A stretch of 64,000 nucleotides of DNA, taken from Pedobacter suwonensis. GTDB taxonomy: Bacteria; Bacteroidota; Bacteroidia; Sphingobacteriales; Sphingobacteriaceae. The position numbers were made by a program, and so were the translations under genes. The stretch is from contig NZ_FOJM01000006.1 in assembly GCF_900111825.1 (NCBI RefSeq), positions 220,506 to 284,505 of the forward strand, read 5' to 3'. The notes under the pieces are model-generated. The model did not search any database. It was not told the DNA's origin and saw only the letters and a program-made list of their open reading frames with translations. Every line of letters begins with the position of its first letter. Within the stretch, counting starts at the first letter, position 1. Of the stretch, positions 5,311-16,260 are shown in pieces.

Positions 5311-5366
5311 GTAAAGCAATCTTAATTAACATCTAACTTACAGTTAACACTGTGGTAATAATTTTG
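5311..5366 (+). promoter_or_regulatory. Phased TTAAC direct repeats and -7 box of the TonB operon
   Basis: TTAAT (5322), CTAAC (5333) and TTAAC (5344) start exactly 11 bp apart, with a weaker GTAAA at 5311. After exactly 10 bp comes TAATTTTG at 5359-5366, matching the Bacteroidota -7 consensus TAnnTTTG. An 11-bp direct-repeat period next to the core promoter is the geometry of PhoB/OmpR-type activators. The regulator itself is not in evidence. Confidence 0.65.
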
Positions 5367-5387
5367 CCCTTATCAAATAAAGGCAAA

Positions 5388-8195
5388 TTGGACTTACTAA
5401 ACTCTTTTAAAAGGGCGGCACTTACTGTGTTCGCGCTAACGATCAGCATACTTTCGTATGCACAGACCGGAAAAATTTCTGGTAAAATAACGGATAAATC
5501 TACGGGGCAAACGTTGGTGGGCCTATCTGTATTGATAGAAGGAACATCAATTGGTACTACCAGTGATGCTGATGGTAATTATATTTTAAATACTGTAAAA
5601 CCAGGAACTTACCGTGTAAGTTTTTCTTTTATTTCCTTTAAAAAACAGGTAATTCCTAATGTAAAAGTTACTCCAGGAAAAACAACTGTGATAGATGTTG
5701 TGATGGAAGATGATCAATCTACCCTTAACGATGTTGTAATTACGGGCGCCAGGAAATCAGGTACTGAAGTATCTCTTTTGGCAGAGCTGAAAAAATCTCA
5801 ATCAATTGCAAACGGAGTTTCCGCTCAAACCATTCAGCGATCCGGTGATACAGATGCTGCGCAAGTAGTAAAACGTGTTCCCGGTATTACGATTGTAGAC
5901 AATCGTTTTATTAATATCCGTGGTCTGGCGGAACGTTATAATAATGTTCAGTTAAATAATGTAACCGCACCCAGCTTAGAAACGGATGTTCGGTCTTTTT
6001 CATTTGATTTAATACCAAGCAATCAAATTGATCGTGTATTGGTTTATAAAAGTCCTTCGGCTGATATTCCCGCAGATTTTGCAGGAGGTGTTGTTAAGGT
6101 TTTTCTTAAAAGCATACCTGATGATGATCGATTAACAATCGATTATGGAACTAGTTACCGTCAAAATGCTACTTTTAAAGATTTCAAAAGAACTAATACC
6201 GGAAGCTTATATTTTACTGGCTTCAATACAGGTGAAAATGATTTACCTGTTAATTTCCCTTCAAATTTAAACCAGGTTAGTGCCAGCAAATTGAACGCGG
6301 CCGGGCATGCACTTAGGAATAACTGGTTACCAGAAGTTAATACGGCTAATTTGGATCAAAAGCTAAATATTTACGGTAGCAAACGATTTAACATCAACAA
6401 TAAATTATTGGGAAATATTACGGCGATTACCTATAGCAACAGTAAAACAAATAATGCCGTGTTTAGAGGAAATTACGAGGTTTATGATCCAATTTCGAAA
6501 ATCGCTGAAGAAAATTACAGATATAATGACGATCAGTATACCTACAATGTCCGTTTAGGGCTTGTACATAACTGGGCCTTTAAATTAAATAATAACAATA
6601 CTTTCGAGTTTAAAAACCTATATAATCAATTAAGTACATCACAATATGTTAGTCGCCTTGGTTCTGAAAAACAGCAGGAATACGCCAATTATGCATCGAA
6701 TGTTTTATATCGTGGCATTTATTCAGGGCAATTATCGGGTGTTCATAAATTTAATGAAGAGCATACCAAGTTTGACTGGGTATTAGGTTATAGTAAATCA
6801 TTCAGAGATCAGCCAGATTACTCGCGTTACAGAACACTTGCTAATGGAGATGGTACTTATAATATCTTCGTGCCAACTGGTGGTGCCCAGCCAGAGTTCC
6901 TGGGTCGGTTTTATTCCAAAATGAATGAAGACATTAAAACCGGTGCATTTAATGTTGAACAGGCACTTGCTCCAAAATCTGAGGGTTTTAAGCCTTCAAT
7001 AAAAGTTGGTGGTTATTATGAAGATAAGCAAAGAACATTTTCTTCTAGAAACATCGGTTACGTGCGGGCAAATTCATTACAATTTGATCAGTCGTTGTTA
7101 AAGGGAACTATAGAAGAACTTTTCGACTGGAAAAATATTAATACAACAACGGGAATCAGATTGGACGAAAAATCTAATCCATATGACAACTATGATGCTT
7201 CAAATAAACTATTAGCTGGATTCGCCAATTTTGTTCTGCCATATAAAGATAAATTAACCGTAGTTGCAGGTGCAAGAGTAGAAAATAACGTTCAGAAACT
7301 GAACAGTTTTGATACTGGAGGCCCTGTTAACGTTAATAATGATATTACGAGGGTACTTCCTTCGGCAAACATCCAGTTTAATATAAACGAAAAATCTTTA
7401 TTCAGACTGGCTTATGGTAAAACATTAAACAGACCAGAATTTAGAGAGATTGCACCCTTTTCATTTTATGATTTTGATCAGAATTTCAATGTTGCCGGAA
7501 ATCCAAATTTAAAAACAGCAAAGATTGATAATTACGATTTAAAATATGAATTCTATCCATCAACAAGCGAACTGATCAGTATTTCAGGCTTCTACAAAAA
7601 ATTTAAAGACGCCATCGAGATGACTGCTATACCAGGTTCTAATGCGCAGTCTTTTAATTTCAATAACGCTCAGAACGTTAGAAATATAGGAGTAGAACTA
7701 GAAATGCGTAAATCGCTTGCAGGGTTAAGTGAAAGTAAGTTTTTAAACGATATCACCATTTTGCTAAATGCTTCATACATTAATAGTAAAGTGATGTTTG
7801 ATGGTGCCAGCGCAATTGGACAATCCAATAATCGCCCTATGCAAGGACAATCACCATATATTTTAAACGCAGCGATATTCTATAATAACATTAAATCTAA
7901 ATTCCAGGTTAACCTGCTTTATAATGTTGCTGGAAAACGTATTGCATTTGTTGGCACAGATCTGATCAGGGATATTTACGAGATGCCAAGAAACGTGGTT
8001 GATTTAGTTGTGACGAAAAATTTCACCAATAAACTATCCCTAAAAGCCAACTTCAACGACTTGCTCAACCAAAACTTTACATTGATGCAAGACGGAAATC
8101 AAGATGGAAAATTCGATCAGTCAGAAGATCAGGTTACGGCCCAATTTAGGAGTGGCCGTCAGTTCGGATTAACGCTTTCTTACAAAATATTTTAA
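5388..8195 (+). CDS. TonB-dependent outer-membrane receptor with carboxypeptidase-regulatory-like N-domain
   Basis: Outer-membrane active transporter. A signal peptide (KR, a hydrophobic core, cleavage near SYAQ) precedes a CarboxypepD_reg-like beta-sandwich (about KISGKITDKSTGQTLVG onward), a TonB-box-like DVVITG, a plug domain (RVPGITIVDNRFINIRGLAERYNNV) and a beta-barrel ending in an aromatic residue (LSYKIF). The frame is open from a GTG at 5352, but that codon lies upstream of the -7 box at 5359-5366, so it would not be in the mRNA. The TTG at 5388 gives a normal signal peptide (about 935 residues) and is preferred. No SusD partner follows; instead there is a beta-helix lipoprotein 27 bp on. 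The substrate is unknown. Confidence 0.9.
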   Translation: MDLLNSFKRAALTVFALTISILSYAQTGKISGKITDKSTGQTLVGLSVLIEGTSIGTTSDADGNYILNTVKPGTYRVSFSFISFKKQVIPNVKVTPGKTTVIDVVMEDDQSTLNDVVITGARKSGTEVSLLAELKKSQSIANGVSAQTIQRSGDTDAAQVVKRVPGITIVDNRFINIRGLAERYNNVQLNNVTAPSLETDVRSFSFDLIPSNQIDRVLVYKSPSADIPADFAGGVVKVFLKSIPDDDRLTIDYGTSYRQNATFKDFKRTNTGSLYFTGFNTGENDLPVNFPSNLNQVSASKLNAAGHALRNNWLPEVNTANLDQKLNIYGSKRFNINNKLLGNITAITYSNSKTNNAVFRGNYEVYDPISKIAEENYRYNDDQYTYNVRLGLVHNWAFKLNNNNTFEFKNLYNQLSTSQYVSRLGSEKQQEYANYASNVLYRGIYSGQLSGVHKFNEEHTKFDWVLGYSKSFRDQPDYSRYRTLANGDGTYNIFVPTGGAQPEFLGRFYSKMNEDIKTGAFNVEQALAPKSEGFKPSIKVGGYYEDKQRTFSSRNIGYVRANSLQFDQSLLKGTIEELFDWKNINTTTGIRLDEKSNPYDNYDASNKLLAGFANFVLPYKDKLTVVAGARVENNVQKLNSFDTGGPVNVNNDITRVLPSANIQFNINEKSLFRLAYGKTLNRPEFREIAPFSFYDFDQNFNVAGNPNLKTAKIDNYDLKYEFYPSTSELISISGFYKKFKDAIEMTAIPGSNAQSFNFNNAQNVRNIGVELEMRKSLAGLSESKFLNDITILLNASYINSKVMFDGASAIGQSNNRPMQGQSPYILNAAIFYNNIKSKFQVNLLYNVAGKRIAFVGTDLIRDIYEMPRNVVDLVVTKNFTNKLSLKANFNDLLNQNFTLMQDGNQDGKFDQSEDQVTAQFRSGRQFGLTLSYKIF

Positions 8196-8222: not shown

Positions 8223-9752
8223 ATGAATATGAAAAAGCTTTACAAGCCAAAATTTGGTACTAATGGATTCAAAACAATGGTATTTGTTTTGGCAGGAACA
8301 TTAATTTTTAGTTCATGTAAAAGAACAACTATTATCGAATACAATGAAGCTGGATATAATTCTGGTAACGGATCTGGTACAGGTACAAATCCAGCTACTG
8401 GATTTACTAAACCAATAGTAGAAGTTGCAAACGGAAGTATTACGACCAACACTAAGTGGACTAAAGACAAAATTTACAGACTTAATGGTTTTGTTAGAGT
8501 GGGAAGAGATGCAAAAAATAAAGCAGGCTTAGCAGCAATTGAAGGAGTTACCTTAGAGATTGAAGCGGGTACGGTGATTATCGGCGACAGAGAGACAAAA
8601 GGTACTTTGGTTGTACAAAGAGGAAATAAATTAATTGCCGAAGGAACTGCATCTCAACCAATTATTTTTACTTCAGAACGTGCTCCGGGATTACGTGAGC
8701 CAGGAGATTGGGGTGGTGTTGTATTATGTGGAAAAGCAACTAACAATCAATCAGGTGGTGAAACCGAATTAGAAGGCGCTTACGAAGGCTGGCACGGTGG
8801 CACGGTTGATACAGATAATTCTGGTATTTTAAAATATGTAAGAATTGATTATGCTGGTACGCCGATTAACCCTAACCAGGAGGTTAACTCATTAACCATG
8901 GGTTCAGTAGGTTCTGGAACTGTAATTGATTACGTGCAATGTTCTTATGGTCTAGATGATGCTTTTGAATGGTTTGGTGGAACTGTAAATGCGAAACACT
9001 TGATCGCTTACCGTGGGCTTGATGATGATTTTGACGTTGATTTTGGTTTCCGTGGTACCGTACAGTTTGCTATTGGCATCCGTGATGCAAATTCTGCCGA
9101 CCAATCTGGTTCTAATGGTTTTGAAGTTGATAATGATGGAACTGGATCAAGTGTTACACCTTACACATCACCTCAGTTTTCTAATGTAACTATTATTGGC
9201 CCAAAGAAAGACAGAACCAAAACCATTTCAACTCAATTTCAAAATGCAATGCATTTGAGAAGAAATAATAAAATAAAAATCTACAATTCTGTATTTACAG
9301 CATACCCTAATGGATTGTTTATTGATGGGGCAACCACTTTGGCAAATGCTGCAAATGGCGAATTAGTATTAAAAAATATTGTTTTAGCAGGTGTTGATGG
9401 TTGGGGAGCAAACGGTTATGGTACAGGAGGTACAACAACATTCCCTAACCCAGTGGGTGTTGAAACGAAATCAACTGGCAATGTAGGTACGCAGGCAATT
9501 GATGTTTGGTTTAAAACAGCATCATTTGGAAATGAAACATATGGGAAATGGCAGGATTTAGGAATCGATGAAACTATTTTTGATTTAGGTGCTACTCCTA
9601 AATTCACATTAAATACGGGGTCAATTTTATTAGCAGGCGCTAGTTTTACAGGCTTAACTGGTTTTGATGTCGTAACTTATCGTGGTGCATTCGGCACTTC
9701 AGACTGGACATCAGGTTGGGCTAACTTTACGCCTCAAACTAATGTCTATTAA
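8223..9752 (+). CDS. Beta-helix-type surface lipoprotein paired with the TonB receptor
   Basis: A 509-residue predicted lipoprotein: the N-terminal hydrophobic stretch ends in LIFSSC (Cys about residue 32), then a Gly/Ser/Thr/Asn-rich linker (about 42-60). The remainder has repeated short beta-strand patterns typical of right-handed beta-helices (VTLEIEAGTVIIGD ... IIFTSERAPG ... VRIDYAGT ... NVTIIGP). An Asp-rich segment (RGLDDDFDVDFGF, about 265) may bind a metal. No catalytic motif is recognised. It follows the TonB gene by 27 bp, shares its promoter and ends before a bidirectional terminator. By position it replaces SusD, so a ligand-binding or tethered-enzyme role is plausible but not shown. 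ATG 8229 is an alternative start. Confidence 0.85.
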   Translation: MNMKKLYKPKFGTNGFKTMVFVLAGTLIFSSCKRTTIIEYNEAGYNSGNGSGTGTNPATGFTKPIVEVANGSITTNTKWTKDKIYRLNGFVRVGRDAKNKAGLAAIEGVTLEIEAGTVIIGDRETKGTLVVQRGNKLIAEGTASQPIIFTSERAPGLREPGDWGGVVLCGKATNNQSGGETELEGAYEGWHGGTVDTDNSGILKYVRIDYAGTPINPNQEVNSLTMGSVGSGTVIDYVQCSYGLDDAFEWFGGTVNAKHLIAYRGLDDDFDVDFGFRGTVQFAIGIRDANSADQSGSNGFEVDNDGTGSSVTPYTSPQFSNVTIIGPKKDRTKTISTQFQNAMHLRRNNKIKIYNSVFTAYPNGLFIDGATTLANAANGELVLKNIVLAGVDGWGANGYGTGGTTTFPNPVGVETKSTGNVGTQAIDVWFKTASFGNETYGKWQDLGIDETIFDLGATPKFTLNTGSILLAGASFTGLTGFDVVTYRGAFGTSDWTSGWANFTPQTNVY

Positions 9753-9814: not shown

Positions 9815-10141
9815 CTATTTTAATTCCGCCTCTTCTTTTTCCGTCACTTTGGCTTTTTTGGTAACGGTTTTTACTGCTGAGGATTTTGTTGGCTTTTCTT
9901 TAACGGGTGGTGCAGCTTGTTCTTCTTCCTTAATAAACGGCACAATAGAATCATCTACAGCAGGAATAGTTACCTTTTTAGCAAGTTGTTTGGCAAACTT
10001 CTCAATTACTTTGTCGATTTTTTTTGCTTTGCCATATTGATTAACTAATTCATTAAATGCAAAGGTTAATTTCGATTCTAATTCTTTACGTAGCTTTTTA
10101 TTGGTCGAATGATTTTTCGACTTGGATTTATTCTTTTTCAT
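9815..10141 (-). CDS. Small lysine-rich basic protein, unknown function
   Basis: A 108-residue protein with no signal peptide or membrane helix. The N-terminal 20 residues are almost all Lys/Ser/Asn, residues about 20-55 form a helix (LESKLTFAFNELVNQYGKAKKIDKVIEKFAKQLAKK), and the tail alternates Lys/Glu/Ala/Val/Thr like a histone H1 or Lys-rich linker (KPTKSSAVKTVTKKAKVT). Nucleic-acid binding is a guess from charge only. On its own strand a TACTTTTG box (10159-10166) lies 17 bp upstream of the start, preceded by TTAAC-like repeats with 11-bp spacing but a 12-bp gap. Confidence 0.8.
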   Translation of the reverse strand: MKKNKSKSKNHSTNKKLRKELESKLTFAFNELVNQYGKAKKIDKVIEKFAKQLAKKVTIPAVDDSIVPFIKEEEQAAPPVKEKPTKSSAVKTVTKKAKVTEKEEAELK

Positions 10142-10158: not shown

Positions 10159-10205
10159 CAAAAGTAGAAAAACAGAAAGTTAAGTTAATATTATGATTAT
10201 GTTAA
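10159..10205 (-). promoter_or_regulatory. Promoter of the lysine-rich protein gene with phased TTAAC-like repeats
   Basis: On the minus strand, TTAAC (10201-10205), ATAAT (10190-10194) and TTAAC (10179-10183) start 11 bp apart and are followed, after 12 bp, by TACTTTTG (10159-10166). The spacing differs by 2 bp from the two best sites in this window, so the assignment is weaker. Confidence 0.45.
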
Positions 10206-10286: not shown

Positions 10287-10439
10287 ATGAATTATCCAAT
10301 AGTAATAGGCGTTGCAGTTCTGGTCATTATTTTAATTATTTATCTGGTCGTCAGAAACCAAAAAGACAAAAAGGAGTTTGAGGAGGAGGTAATCCAATCA
10401 GAACTTCCCGCGGAGAAAGACGATAAAGAGAATAATTAA
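10287..10439 (+). CDS. 50-residue single-pass membrane protein
   Basis: A small protein with one transmembrane helix (YPIVIGVAVLVIILIIYLVV, residues 3-22) followed by a charged, Lys/Glu/Asp-rich cytoplasmic-type tail. An upstream in-frame TTG at 10257 would add ten residues, but the ATG at 10287 puts the helix right at the N-terminus and is preferred. Its stop codon overlaps that of the convergent gene: both stops are read from the same TTAA at 10436-10439. No family is recognised. Confidence 0.65.
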   Translation: MNYPIVIGVAVLVIILIIYLVVRNQKDKKEFEEEVIQSELPAEKDDKENN

Positions 10440-10711
10440 AAAGCATTTCCTGGTGCTACTTCACCACCTAAATCCAATGTATTTTGAAAGGCCTCCAGGT
10501 AGCCCAACAAATGGCGTTCTGCATTGGCATAAGAGGTAAATGTGGAAGCCGGTACATTGGCTTCCTGTCCGCTGGTATTTTTAAAGTGCGAACTGACCTG
10601 AAATGTAAAGGTTTTGTCGTCATTAATTGGAGATAGAATCCTGGCCTTTACCGGATAGCCGTGAATTTCGACAAAGAATTCCTTAATAACAGTATAGATG
10701 ATGGCGGCCAT
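10436..10711 (-). CDS. Conserved-looking 91-residue hypothetical protein
   Basis: No signal peptide, membrane helix or known motif. Predicted alternating strands (FFVEIHGYPVKARILSPI, KTFTFQVSSHFKN) followed by a helix (SYANAERHLLGYLEAFQN) suggest a small alpha/beta fold. The ATG at 10711 gives the whole frame. A four-unit TTAAC array lies 67-104 bp upstream, but in the orientation pointing away from this gene. No function can be assigned. Confidence 0.75.
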   Translation of the reverse strand: MAAIIYTVIKEFFVEIHGYPVKARILSPINDDKTFTFQVSSHFKNTSGQEANVPASTFTSYANAERHLLGYLEAFQNTLDLGGEVAPGNAF

Positions 10712-10777: not shown

Positions 10778-10815
10778 ATAACATCATCTTAACTTATGGT
10801 TAACCTTAGCTTAAC
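10778..10815 (+). promoter_or_regulatory. Four-unit phased TTAAC array
   Basis: ATAAC, TTAAC, TTAAC and TTAAC start at 10778, 10789, 10800 and 10811, each 11 bp apart. It lies between the start of the 91-residue gene and the 3' end of the transglutaminase-like gene, both on the minus strand. On the plus strand a TTCATTTG (7 of 8 matches to TAnnTTTG) follows after 11 bp, which would drive an antisense transcript. Which promoter it controls is unresolved. Confidence 0.5.
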
Positions 10816-10827
10816 CTGTCCGGTCTT

Positions 10828-12036
10828 TCATTTGTTGCCAGGCTCATAAGCATATACCACCTCATACTTCAGGTTTTTCAGGTTGGTGGCAATTTGCCCT
10901 ATTTTTAAGTTTTGTGCCTGAGGGGTAGGTTCACAATAAGAATATTTTTTGCCCTTATAAGTAACTGCTTCACCCACTGGTTTGTCAAACTGTACCGCAA
11001 TGGTTAAATGTTTGGGGTATAGTAATGCAATCATTGGCAGGTTATATATTTCCTTTACCAGGTAAAAGAATAATGCGGCCCGGTCGTCGCAGTCGCTATA
11101 TGTACTCAATAAAGTTTGTTCCGGAGAAAAGCGTTTTTCCTTACCATAGTTTTCATTGTCATCTTCATATAGAAAGCCATAACGTGTAAATCTCATCAGG
11201 TAGTCCACACCTTTTTTCTGATCCATGTTTTTCAGATTTTCTTTCAGTGTGGGAATAAGAGAACTGTACGTTTCTCTGCTCAGCGGGATATTGAAATAAC
11301 TCTCAAAATCAACTACCGGATAATTTTTAAAAATGGTCTGTACATCCTGATTAACTTTAAGTTTAAAATGATGTATTTTCTGTCGGTAGCTAAATTCAAT
11401 GTCTTTTTCCTCGTAACTTTCAGGCTTAAAATCGGGCATTCTGGTTACCTTATAGGAAAATGGATTCTTGGCTTCTGGTATTGATATCTTTATCGGTTTG
11501 TAAGCATCGGCCTGTTTAAATAGTTTGCCGTAATCATGGTAGTTCAGGTATGTAAACTTTTGCCCGTCAATCATAAAAAACGGAATATCGCTGATGTCTT
11601 CTTCGTTTCTTACATAAAAAATGACCTGGTCGTTGCCTACCGCCAACCTTGCATCGTAGCCGCATTTACTTAGTAAAAACCATTTATATAATGTATATCC
11701 AAAATAGTTGTTGGCTTTGGGACTAATCTGTTCTGCTGTTTTGCGGATCAGTTGATAATAAATCCAGTCGTTTAAATTAAATTTTTTCTGGTACGTTTCT
11801 AAAGATGAGATAAGGGAAGCGTATCGTCCGGAAGAGACCTGATGATAAAAGTTCGAAACTGCTGAAGCTGTTGCCGTTTGAGGTATGGGAAAAACTATTG
11901 TGGAATCGACATTGAAATTAAAAGTTCCTTCGTAAAAATCGAAAGCGTATTGTTGTCCCTTTGAGCTGATGGCATTTGTCATCAGGCCAGCGAACAAAAT
12001 AGTCCTCAAAATGTAGATGTAAATTCCTCTTTTCAA
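10828..12036 (-). CDS. Secreted transglutaminase-like cysteine-protease-fold protein
   Basis: A 402-residue protein with an N-terminal signal peptide (KRGIYIYILRTILFAGLMTNAISSKGQ). The C-terminal third has the Cys/His/acidic layout of transglutaminase-like domains: YSDCDDRAALFFYLV (Cys about residue 320), YPKHLTIAV (His about 350) and YSYCEP near 375. The preceding part is beta-rich and unassigned. These domains can be proteases, peptide ligases or inactive scaffolds, so the activity is not predicted. It is probably periplasmic or surface exposed. On its own strand a TTG, a 19-bp gap and TAAATTTA precede the start and may be its promoter. It stands alone, between two phased TTAAC arrays. Confidence 0.8.
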   Translation of the reverse strand: MKRGIYIYILRTILFAGLMTNAISSKGQQYAFDFYEGTFNFNVDSTIVFPIPQTATASAVSNFYHQVSSGRYASLISSLETYQKKFNLNDWIYYQLIRKTAEQISPKANNYFGYTLYKWFLLSKCGYDARLAVGNDQVIFYVRNEEDISDIPFFMIDGQKFTYLNYHDYGKLFKQADAYKPIKISIPEAKNPFSYKVTRMPDFKPESYEEKDIEFSYRQKIHHFKLKVNQDVQTIFKNYPVVDFESYFNIPLSRETYSSLIPTLKENLKNMDQKKGVDYLMRFTRYGFLYEDDNENYGKEKRFSPEQTLLSTYSDCDDRAALFFYLVKEIYNLPMIALLYPKHLTIAVQFDKPVGEAVTYKGKKYSYCEPTPQAQNLKIGQIATNLKNLKYEVVYAYEPGNK

Positions 12037-12222: not shown

Positions 12223-12267
12223 ATAACATTTCATTAATACCAATTTAACATGGCCAGCCTACTTTTG
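12223..12267 (+). promoter_or_regulatory. Phased TTAAC repeats and -7 box of a small RNA
   Basis: ATAAC (12223), TTAAT (12234) and TTAAC (12245) start exactly 11 bp apart; after exactly 10 bp comes TACTTTTG at 12260-12267 (TAnnTTTG). The geometry is identical to that in front of the TonB receptor gene. The next annotated gene on this strand is almost 2 kb away, so the promoter must serve an intergenic transcript. Confidence 0.65.
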
Positions 12268-12272
12268 TGGCA

Positions 12273-12346
12273 TAAATATTTGGTTAGTATTTATAAAGTT
12301 TAGGTTAGTTGATAATAAAAAACCCAGATGGATGTCTGGGTTTTTT
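12273..12346 (+). ncRNA. Predicted ~75-nt small RNA
   Basis: The start is placed about 6 nt after the TACTTTTG box and the end at a strong terminator (AAAAAACCCAGA, loop TGGATG, TCTGGGTTTTTT at 12317-12346). The body between is AT-rich, unstructured and has no start codon followed by a plausible frame. A regulated promoter, about 45 nt of single-stranded body and a 3' terminator hairpin is the usual build of a trans-acting bacterial sRNA. The terminator could also serve the convergent acyltransferase gene. No family is recognised. Confidence 0.55.
12317..12346. terminator. Intrinsic terminator, sRNA 3' end and acyltransferase gene
   Basis: Perfect 12-bp stem AAAAAACCCAGA / TCTGGGTTTTTT around TGGATG. 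T-rich on both strands, so it can stop the plus-strand small RNA and the minus-strand acyltransferase transcript whose stop codon is at 12358. Confidence 0.88.
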
Positions 12347-12357
12347 ATTGCCTTAAA

Positions 12358-14109
12358 TTATAAGTTTTTGCCGAGTTTTTCCAAAATTTCTGCTGGAATA
12401 CTGTGGGTATCAACCACTAAGAAACCATCTAAACAATCAGAAAACTTAGGGTCGATATTGAATGAGATGATCTTTGCATTCAGGTTCATGTACTGCCTCA
12501 ACAATACCGGGATTTTAATATGCGTGTTTTCGATGTCTCCGATAATGCTGTCCAGATCTTTGAAAGATTCGCTGCTGTCAACCAGGGTATCGGTAGAAAT
12601 AGGCAATAAATCGGCTTTAAATTTGTTTCGCGGTTTAACGTATTTGGCCATTTCGTAATCGAAATGGTTCTTGGTGATGTAATCTACAATTAAAGCCTTG
12701 CTGAATTTCGAGAAATTATTACTGATACTTACAGGACCGAACATATAACGGTACTGTGGATTATCGATCAGGTATTTTAAAATCCCTTTCCATAACAGGA
12801 ATAGGGGAAGTGGTTTACCCTGGTATTCTTTTCTGATCCATGATCTGCCCAATTCAATACCTTGTCTCAACATCGGGTAGAATTGATCTTTCATTTTAAA
12901 GAGTTCAGAAAGGTAAAAACCACGGCGTCCCATGCTTTCTAAAATCTCATCACCTTTTCCAATCCGGTAAGCTCCTACAATATTTTCTAAATCTTTATCC
13001 CATATAAATAAATGGTTATAGTAAATATCGTAATTATCCAGGTCGATTTTTTTATTGGTGCCCTCGCCAACCTCACGGAAAGTGATTTCGCGTAAACGGC
13101 CGATTTCCCTTAAAATATTAGGGATTTTTAAAGTTGGGACAATATATACCTCATAATTTTTCTCCGTCCAGACCCTGAAATCTTCCAGAGCTGCTACCTC
13201 ATTTTTAATCAGGAGCCTTGAGGTTTCTTCAATTACCTCCGCAGGTTTCTTTTTAATTTTAAACAGGTTTAACGGGTTAAAGAGTTTTTTCTCAGTATCT
13301 AAACCAATACCAAGCGCGTAGGTACGGGCTCTTAAAAAGTCCATTAGCTTATTGCTGCTGTTCATGTGCGAAATTTCAGAAACGGCTATTGGCTTACCAA
13401 TCCGGACCTTGATGGTTCGTCCATGTTTGTTTAAAAATTCTGAAGGTAGCTTTGCCGTGCGCAGGGTAGGGTGTATAAAGCTCAAAATATTAAAGAAAAC
13501 GCCATTATTACCATGGAAATAAATCGGTACAACGGGTACTTTAGCTTTAGCAATCAGTTTTCCAACAACAGGGTGCCACATCCTGTCGGTTACCTGCTGA
13601 GCATCTAATTTAAAAGTAGATACTTCTCCGGCAGGGAAAATACCAATCGGTGTTCCGTTTCTGAGCAGGTCAAACGTAGTTTTTAATCCGCTGATGCTGG
13701 AAGAATGCTGCACATTTTCGAAAGGATTAACCGCCACAAAAAACTCATCAAGGTTTGGTATTTTTTTCAGAATAAAATTGACCATTACCTTGGCATCTGG
13801 CCTAACCGTACACAATAGTTTAACCAGGGCCAAACCTTCTACACCGCCATAAGGGTGATTTGCAATAGCGATAAAAGGTCCTGTTTTCGGGATACTATTT
13901 AAGTCATCATCGTCGAATTCTATAGAAACACCAATGGTTTCCAATATCTTGTCTACAAATTCTAAGCCTTTAAAGTGTTGATTTTGAGCAAATACATCAT
14001 TAATGTCGTTCAGTTTCATGATCTCCATCATCAAACCTGCTAAACCTGGCACACCTAGCTTATCTATCTTTGTTGCTTTCGCAAACTCAGATGTAGTTAT
14101 GATTTTCAT
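12358..14109 (-). CDS. olsF: Two-domain acyltransferase, OlsF-type (ornithine/glycine lipid synthesis)
   Basis: A 583-residue fusion. Residues about 60-290 are a PlsC-type O-acyltransferase: NHPYGGVEG carries the catalytic His, and GIFPAGEVS matches the FPEGTRS motif. Residues about 320-560 are a GNAT-like N-acyltransferase of the OlsB/hemolysin-like type (YNHLFIWDKDLENIVGAYRIG ... GFYLSELF). This order is that of OlsF, reported to make ornithine lipids in Serratia and Flavobacterium in two steps: N-acylation by the C-terminal domain and O-acylation by the N-terminal domain. The frame extends to 14160, but the ATG at 14109 (MKIITTSEFAKATKI) is preferred; on this strand a TATTTTTG box lies about 50 bp upstream. 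Single gene, divergent from the HhH gene. The amino-acid head group is not predictable. Confidence 0.75.
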   Translation of the reverse strand: MKIITTSEFAKATKIDKLGVPGLAGLMMEIMKLNDINDVFAQNQHFKGLEFVDKILETIGVSIEFDDDDLNSIPKTGPFIAIANHPYGGVEGLALVKLLCTVRPDAKVMVNFILKKIPNLDEFFVAVNPFENVQHSSSISGLKTTFDLLRNGTPIGIFPAGEVSTFKLDAQQVTDRMWHPVVGKLIAKAKVPVVPIYFHGNNGVFFNILSFIHPTLRTAKLPSEFLNKHGRTIKVRIGKPIAVSEISHMNSSNKLMDFLRARTYALGIGLDTEKKLFNPLNLFKIKKKPAEVIEETSRLLIKNEVAALEDFRVWTEKNYEVYIVPTLKIPNILREIGRLREITFREVGEGTNKKIDLDNYDIYYNHLFIWDKDLENIVGAYRIGKGDEILESMGRRGFYLSELFKMKDQFYPMLRQGIELGRSWIRKEYQGKPLPLFLLWKGILKYLIDNPQYRYMFGPVSISNNFSKFSKALIVDYITKNHFDYEMAKYVKPRNKFKADLLPISTDTLVDSSESFKDLDSIIGDIENTHIKIPVLLRQYMNLNAKIISFNIDPKFSDCLDGFLVVDTHSIPAEILEKLGKNL

Positions 14110-14202
14110 ATAATTCTTAGATTGTTGATAGGCAAAACCTATGCAGTTTTGCAATTCCAAAAATAAGATTTATATTTATAATCCACATGTCATATCGCAT
14201 CA

Positions 14203-15116: not shown

Positions 15117-16260
15117 GATTTTGGAAAGCAAAACCTGTATTCCATAGGGAAGTTTCTCCCTGCTCTTCGCTTTACTCCGTTGCACTCCGTGTTCGCTGCG
15201 ATCAGGTTTAAGTACGCAAGATAGTGCTGTAAACGATAATAATCTTAAATGCATATTATTTCTGCACCCTGCAACCTCAAATCTGATTACTGGCCGTGCC
15301 ACCTAAACCCAATGGAAGCGGTCACGCAGTAAAGCGGACAGTGGGACTGCGTGATCCTGAATGCTTCCAATTTGCTTTCCTAAAAAAAGCGTATTTAAGA
15401 GTTCTGTTGTTTTGGAAAGCAAAATCTGTATTTCATCGTCAGGTTTCTTCCTGCTCTTCGCTTTACTCCGTTGCACTCCGTGTTCGCTGCGATCAGGTTT
15501 AGATACGCAGGACAGTGCTGCAATCCTTTGCGCATAACTAAAGGCAGGTTGTTTCTGCACGCTGCAACCCCCAATCTGATTACCGGCCGTGCCACCTAAA
15601 CCCAATGGAAGCGGTCACGCAGTAAAGCGGACAGTGGGACTGCTTGATCCTGAATGCTTCCAATTTGCTTTCCTAAAAAAAAGTGTATTTAAGAATTCCG
15701 TTGTTTTGGAAAGCAAAACCTGTATTCCATCGTCAGGTTTCTTCCTGCTCTTCGCTTTACTCCGTTGCACTCCGTGTTCGCTGCGATCAGGTTTAGTTAC
15801 GCAGGACAGTGCTGCAAGCCTTTGCGCATAACTAAAGACAGGTTGTTTCTGCACCCCAATCTGATTACTGGCCGTGCCACCTAAACCCAATGGAAGCGGG
15901 CACGCAGTAAAGCGGACAGTGGGACTGCGTGATCCTAAATGCTCCCAACTTGCTTTCCTAAAAGAAAGCGTATTTAAGAGTTCTGTTGTTTTGGAAAGCA
16001 AAACCTGTATTCCATAGTCAGGTTTCTTCCTGCTCTTCGCTTTACTCCGTTGCACTCCGTGTTCGCTGCGATCAGGTTTAGTTACGCAGGACAGTGCTGC
16101 AAGCCTTTGTGCATAACTAAAGGCAGGTTGTTTCACCCAAATCTGATTACTGGCCGTGCCACCTAAACCCAATGGAAGCGGGCACGCAGTAAAGCGGACA
16201 GTGGGACTGCGTAATCCTAATGATTCTAAACCTGCTTTCCTAAAAAAACACGTTTAAGTA
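15117..16260. repeat. Four-copy tandem array of ~290-bp repeats
   Basis: Units begin TTGGAAAGC at 15121, 15412, 15706 and 15991 (periods 291, 294 and 285 bp) and close with GCTTTCC at about 15380, 15673, 15958 and 16240, so each unit has imperfect terminal inverted repeats (TTTGGAAAGCAAA / TTTGCTTTCC). A roughly 31-bp AT-rich spacer, itself conserved, separates units. Each unit ends in a hairpin in which GGAAGC and TCACGCAGT pair with ACTGCGTGA and GCTTCC (first copy 15314-15368). Copies differ by scattered substitutions and a short deletion (copies 3 and 4 lack part of the region around CTGCACGCTGCAACC). Open frames across it are repeat artefacts. A diverged inverted relative lies at 50717-50766. 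Confidence 0.92.

Follow-up and report, generated by a model that had tools for sequence, protein, structure and literature searches.

Two promoters in the 64,000-nucleotide stretch of Pedobacter suwonensis DNA analysed here (the window) carry the same arrangement of three NTAAY units at 11-bp spacing, followed after 10 bp by a TAnnTTTG box. One precedes an operon encoding a TonB-dependent transporter and a lipoprotein (array from 5322), and the other precedes a noncoding RNA of about 76 nt (array from 12223). We consider it likely that this array is the PHO box of Pedobacter, through which a PhoB-like regulator of the OmpR family activates both transcription units when phosphate is scarce. 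What was established for the array is its sequence, spacing, conservation and gene context; binding, phosphate dependence and transcription are inferred.

At the TonB operon, the units TTAAT (5322-5326), CTAAC (5333-5337) and TTAAC (5344-5348) lie on the forward strand and form a candidate PHO-box-type operator, with the -7 box TAATTTTG on the same strand at 5359-5366, 10 bp after the last unit. These units, the gap and the box match the original prediction exactly, and its claim that both the period and the 10-bp gap recur at 12223-12267 was confirmed. When both strands of the window were searched for three NTAAY units at 11 bp, a further 10 bp and TAnnTTTG, only these two sites were found. 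The operon transcript would be expected to begin near 5370-5373, a few bases past the box. Its first gene (5388-8195, +), read from a TTG codon, encodes the TonB-dependent transporter, with CarboxypepD_reg, Plug and OMP_b-brl_3 domains (Pfam), and the second (8223-9752, +) encodes a lipoprotein without a Pfam match. Among 17 same-genus orthologues of the TonB gene for which loci were fetched, 16 share the array of three units with its 10-bp gap and its box, and one (L267) has a degenerate array. Lack of conserved spacing in orthologous promoters had been named as a result that would refute the prediction, and the 16 orthologues that keep the array do not refute it. Three longer TonB paralogues from the genus have no array. 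The strict pattern gave no match in TonB orthologues from other families; in three such orthologues from other families of the class, TTAAC-like repeats with an 11-bp period were recognised by eye, without statistics.

The array had also been taken to imply that the TonB gene starts at TTG 5388 instead of GTG 5352, and this shift is supported by the presence of TTG at that place in 17 of 17 same-genus orthologues. GTG 5352 was rejected as a start codon, since the -7 box comes after it and, in two orthologues (L263 and L266), the frame is closed by a stop codon between the GTG and the TTG. On this comparative evidence, the start of the TonB gene is TTG 5388, not GTG 5352. An inverted repeat, TTTGCC...GGCAAA (5363-5387), spans the TonB promoter and start and is kept in most orthologues. 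Although conserved, it was set aside as a leader hairpin because its left arm precedes the likely transcript start.

The pattern was then followed through the genome and the genus. A looser, two-unit form occurs seven times in the 5.8-Mb genome, compared with two occurrences of the backward pattern. Two of the seven matches are the window sites, one precedes a second copy of the small RNA, and one (L005) lies immediately 5' of the genes for a DUF47 protein and the phosphate permease Pit; of the other three, one stands before a TolC-like gene, one before an ECF-sigma-like gene and one before no clear gene. In the search of related genomes that had been proposed as a check, the three-unit form was present in 69 of 69 Pedobacter genomes, at one to six per genome, whereas its backward control gave two matches in total across the same genomes. 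Genes behind the three-unit matches were inspected, among the matches listed, at 30 automatically fetched loci and at 40 picked loci, the latter being neither TonB nor small-RNA sites, or of a TTTAAT kind considered below.

The register of the units was assessed in promoters of the small RNA. From 146 distinct upstream sequences, six without a recognisable box were excluded, including two from unrelated bacteria (L111 and L125), which left 140. TAAY begins 14 bp before the box in 118 of these promoters, 25 bp before it in 122 and 36 bp before it in 104. At least two of the three units were present in 124, versus zero or one when the register was moved by 1 to 5 bases. Pairwise column identity was 59-98% in the TAA core and mostly about 25-47% in other upstream columns. 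A weight matrix was built from 58 unique small-RNA promoters, the input being 69 candidate copies of the RNA minus 10 without a strict TAnnTTTG box, of which two (L025 and L071) are not copies of the RNA. The 12223 site was in this training set and the 5322 site was not; the latter nevertheless ranked second of about 128,000 window positions at 17.9 bits, and the next position, which is unrelated, scored 10.1. The matrix consensus has the repeats, and no TTTG, at the position of a -35-type element. Because the TAAY register is fixed in the small-RNA promoters and near-absent in shifted registers, we conclude from its conservation that the array is a conserved operator and not a consequence of AT-richness, as had been argued at the outset from the two window sites alone; the backward control leads to the same result.

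Related repeats occur elsewhere in the window. On the reverse strand, the units TTAAC, ATAAT and TTAAC at 11 bp are separated by 12 bp from TACTTTTG (10205-10159), upstream of an ORF (9815-10141) for a lysine-rich protein of 108 aa, and the same 12-bp gap is found at this site in the relative G010 (L390). Four 11-bp units, ATAAC, TTAAC, TTAAC and TTAAC (10778-10815, +), lie between the ORFs 10436-10711 and 10828-12036 and have no matching box. A separate tandem array at 15119-16248 consists of 3.9 copies of a 285-bp unit with 90% matches and holds only spurious-looking ORFs.

The second array comprises ATAAC (12223-12227), TTAAT (12234-12238) and TTAAC (12245-12249) on the forward strand and is followed, after 10 bp, by the -7 box TACTTTTG (12260-12267, +). 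A protein-coding role was rejected for this array, as the conserved block contains no reading frame and has stops in all frames. Judged by what lies downstream, the array drives a hitherto unlisted small RNA (about 76 nt; 12271-12346, +) and not a protein gene; the 5' end of this RNA and its transcription are inferred. Downstream of the boxes, about 75 bp ending in a terminator are nearly identical between the window copy and the second copy in this genome (L007, contig C39), whereas the upstream DNA differs except for the repeats. The element was detected in 35 of the 36 genomes searched from the genus, where a genome has as many as five matches, some of them partial; a single 20-base match in another family is probably due to chance. 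With a strict RNA pattern, 56 of the 69 genomes of the genus gave a match, as against none of 232 genomes from other genera of the family. A scan of a named collection returned at least 118 stretches, and the 80 listed among them comprised 77 from Pedobacter, 1 from Nubsella and 2 stray matches from unrelated bacteria. By this distribution of matches, the RNA is a multicopy family of Pedobacter (and one Nubsella). Convergent to the small RNA lies a gene (12358-14160, -) for a fused GNAT and acyltransferase protein, ornithine-lipid-synthase-like by its domains, which also adjoins the copy of the RNA at L390.

The RNA is predicted to fold into a 5' hairpin (12272-12294) with the loop UGGUU (12281-12285), an unpaired linker (12295-12316) and a terminator hairpin (12317-12346), with a folding energy of -19.8 kcal/mol (z = -4.25). 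Across 27 sequences, all 11 consensus pairs fall in the terminator, each with at least one double change; covariation is silent on the 5' hairpin because that part hardly varies. The most conserved part of the RNA contains GGUUAG twice, in the hairpin loop and again in the linker. No Rfam family reached its gathering threshold for this sequence, the highest being MicC with 29.7 bits against 90. With its own promoter, its own terminator, conservation and no open reading frame, the element meets the criteria for a small regulatory RNA, the transcript again being inferred.

Possible targets were indicated by the leaders of SusC genes. The loop seed AUUUGGUUAGU (12278-12288, +) is the complement of the SusC leader motif ACUAACCAAAU, and the linker seed GGUUAGUU (12303-12310, +) is the complement of AACUAACC. 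The genome has 68 matches to the SusC signature, and the analysis was restricted to the 62 that exceed the family cut-off. Their top 6-mers were CTGATC (5 leaders), followed by TAACCA (19), AACTAA (28), CTAACC (12) and AACCAA (25), and the last four assemble to AACTAACCAAAT, the complement of the RNA loop plus linker. On leader-derived scores, which are independent of the RNA itself, the RNA ranked above every other 45-nt window of the 64 kb (127,781 windows, overlapping), and its score was reached by 0 of 3,000 dinucleotide shuffles (top-8) or 4 of 3,000 (mean). A perfect complement of at least 7 nt was present in 39 of the 62 SusC leaders, compared to 15.7 ± 3.1 for shuffled leaders and 11 of 44 other genes; for at least 9 nt, the corresponding values were 15 of 62, 1.3 ± 1.1 and 1 of 44. 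The complementary sites cluster 40 to 10 bases before the SusC ATG. We propose that the Pho-induced RNA may pair through its GGUUAG seeds with SusC leaders and lower their translation, a pairing inferred from a single genome. The leader of the TonB transporter in the window contains no CTAACC.

We give nearly even odds to a different role, in which a real, Pho-controlled RNA acts by binding a protein or on targets other than SusC mRNAs, and the SusC match is only the by-product of a leader motif that is older. In another genus, a genome without a match to the RNA pattern has ACCAAT-type leaders related to the SusC leaders of P. suwonensis, and CTAACC is not significantly rarer there (4/30 vs 12/62, p = 0.35), which fits an older motif; AACTAA, in contrast, is commoner in P. 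suwonensis (28/62 vs 4/30, p = 0.002), and this, the first rank of the RNA among all windows and the excess of 7-nt complements in SusC leaders over shuffled leaders and other genes argue for a connection to SusC. By duplex energy, the separation between SusC and other genes was weak (p = 0.018), and the difference was reached by 15 of 300 shuffles. A plain genome scan for AACTAACC-N(2-18)-ATGAA, which preceded the SusC-centred tests, also favours a different role, giving 8 matches, three of them SusC genes, versus 12 in its control. The motif appears in few SusC leaders from other Pedobacter loci: 19 leaders were available, several of which are not SusC by eye, and three contain AAACTAACC, too few to decide. 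Three SusC-like genes with an array in other Pedobacter (L238, L288 and L311) have AAACTAACC shortly before the start. The fuller proposal, in which low phosphate acts through a PhoB-like regulator to make the multicopy RNA a general brake on SusC that covers the leader motif AACTAACCAAAT, with the window TonB transporter escaping, is tentative and in our judgment falls somewhat short of an even chance. If it is true, phosphate status would set the share of the outer membrane devoted to glycan uptake, because the RNA would brake SusC.

The evidence for phosphate as the signal comes from context, above all from the genes behind the array. Binding of the direct repeats by a PhoB/OmpR-type regulator, first suggested by the 11-bp period, is supported by the conserved repeats and by PhoB-like gene context, in the absence of binding data. 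In E. coli, a PHO box lies at a fixed short distance from the -10 element and replaces the -35 element. The array likewise has two or more 11-bp direct repeats and a fixed short distance to the -10/-7 element (10 bp, with the exception of 12 bp at 10205), and it meets the further criterion of a position before phosphate-acquisition genes. Two proximal units and the box were found upstream in 24 of 30 Pit loci; the DUF47 gene is directly next in 23 of the 24, and another frame intervenes in one (L339). Five of the 30 loci have a longer Pit and no array, and at one (L332) a contig end cuts the upstream region. Most of the 30 alkaline phosphatase loci are without an array; only 3 have a site directly upstream, where matrix scores are low and one unit is degenerate. 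PhoU (PF01895) was absent from 31 of 31 Pedobacter genomes and present in 13 of 14 control genomes; it therefore could not be used as a phosphate marker, and phosphate uptake in Pedobacter seems to rest on DUF47-Pit.

Candidate regulators were found near these sites. A histidine kinase gene lies just upstream of the DUF47-Pit promoter in P. suwonensis. In a genome of another family (G038), the TonB orthologue and a gene for an OmpR-family regulator are arranged divergently, and the best match of this regulator in P. suwonensis is a gene on contig C40 with 58% identity, the next reaching 36%. Upstream of the C40 gene, three TTAAC units repeat at 11 bp. The box of this promoter, TACTTTCG, keeps the register only on the assumption of a fourth, degenerate unit, and the promoter scores poorly with the matrix (-3.9). 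Phosphate starvation had originally been advanced partly on account of the ornithine-lipid-type gene in the same stretch. That argument fails, since the gene is convergent to the second array and downstream of neither, and is therefore uninformative. Phosphate as a candidate signal instead gains support from the DUF47-Pit promoters and the repeats at the PhoB-like regulator and, indirectly, from the published low-Pi induction of a transporter and lipoprotein pair in Flavobacterium. Because these sites and repeats agree with the literature on Flavobacterium johnsoniae, Riemerella and PHO boxes discussed below, a phosphate regulator is the best reading of the array, although neither a phosphate response nor binding data are available.

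An OmpR-type operator answering a non-phosphate signal (redox, envelope stress or metals), with the phosphate genes as part of a wider regulon, appears unlikely but deserves consideration. TTTAAT arrays with the same geometry of a 10-bp gap and box occur before TolC-like, TatA and response-regulator genes at ten loci (L001, L228, L230, L233, L241, L290, L321 and L323-L325), and same-geometry arrays precede ECF-sigma-factor-like genes at four (L006, L294, L299 and L303), so array geometry alone is no proof of phosphate control. Further targets include hydrolases, small membrane proteins and others without an evident tie to phosphate, and the scarcity of alkaline phosphatase loci with a site points in the same direction. 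In the accessible portion of the Riemerella report, PhoP sites resemble ArcA sites and are found before 764 genes (PMC9603813). Evidence against a non-phosphate signal is given by the site at most Pit loci, by the regulator that adjoins the TonB gene of G038 and by the F. johnsoniae cluster of phoBR, transporter and lipoprotein, as far as the latter is described in the text available. TTAAC and TTTAAT units, moreover, look like separate sets, and the TTTAAT arrays probably belong to another OmpR-type regulator. Chance repeats, for which one could cite the 62% A+T of the window and its frequent TTAA-like words, are ruled out for practical purposes by the register-specific conservation in 124 of 140 promoters and by a pattern found in every Pedobacter genome against two control matches.

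Under control by a phosphate regulator, the 11-bp repeats would form a head-to-tail series that ends 10 bp short of the -7 box and occupies the place of the upstream promoter element. A PhoB-like regulator of the OmpR family, activated by low phosphate, would bind these repeats and switch on DUF47-Pit phosphate uptake, the TonB transporter and lipoprotein pair, and the small RNA. The pair, with translation from TTG 5388, may serve phosphorus acquisition, while the RNA could pair with the common motif of SusC mRNA leaders and reduce translation; the resulting decrease in SusC might leave outer-membrane and TonB capacity for phosphorus uptake. The regulator half of this model rests on conservation and context, and the SusC half on a statistical prediction in one genome.

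PHO boxes of E. coli, Bacillus and Streptomyces are 11-nt direct repeats to which an OmpR-family regulator binds head to tail, according to the part of the source that was available (PMC4415409). The Pedobacter array resembles these PhoB and PhoP operators in its 11-bp direct repeats and in the phosphate genes downstream, binding being inferred. It differs in having NTAAY units, not CTGTCAT or GTTCACC, usually three in number and followed by the Bacteroidota TAnnTTTG box, and, unlike classical PHO systems, the Pedobacter genomes searched are without PhoU. Within the same phylum, the PhoP motif of Riemerella anatipestifer has TTTAACA as its most conserved bases and lies before TonB-dependent and outer-membrane genes; its authors tie it to virulence and to an ArcA-like redox role (PMC9603813, available in part). 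The Pedobacter array shares with that motif, so far as the available text describes it, a TTAAC-type core and TonB-dependent targets; that text gives neither an 11-bp period nor a distance to the -7 box.

The operon in the window also has a counterpart in F. johnsoniae. In the accessible sections of the relevant study, consecutive locus tags of the PUS IV/phoBR cluster (Fjoh_0543-0546) encode PhoR, PhoB, a TonB-dependent transporter and a lipoprotein lacking Pfam domains, and the transporter (Plug, CarbopepD_reg_2 and OMP_b-brl_3) and lipoprotein are strongly induced at low Pi (PMC8115612). The window pair is like this pair in domains and order, and its lipoprotein corresponds to Fjoh_0546 (form II) in position and domain status, as given in those sections, not by sequence comparison. 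It is unlike the F. johnsoniae cluster in that no phoBR lies alongside. Our literature search, which left subscription papers mostly uncovered, found no Pho box with an NTAAY array sequence described for Bacteroidota and, among the matches listed, no description of the RNA of about 76 nt. The PHO box as such is a known kind of element. The array provides a specific candidate for the operator of phosphate control in a large Bacteroidota genus, and with it comes a conserved small RNA that has a likely signal and a likely target class.

The closest functional parallels to the RNA are found in other small RNAs. FopS and GibS of Bacteroides thetaiotaomicron are multicopy RNAs of 65-70 nt with a seed complementary to the susC mRNA start region, as stated in the available portion of the report (PMC11697453). 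The Pedobacter RNA is like FopS in being multicopy and in having a seed complementary to susC translation start regions, the latter on sequence grounds in one genome. FopS and GibS differ, by the same partial account, in depending on ordinary promoters and bile salts and not on an 11-bp array. Homology was not supported, as the similarity of the RNA to the FopS 5' consensus did not exceed that of shuffles, 870 of 2000 of which scored as well. The OmrA and OmrB RNAs of E. coli are near-identical to each other, are induced by an OmpR-family regulator and lower TonB-dependent outer-membrane proteins; they differ from the Pedobacter RNA in phylum, signal and sequence. Should the SusC step prove true, the Pedobacter RNA would be a second case, unrelated to FopS, of small-RNA control of SusC translation, and one tied to phosphate.
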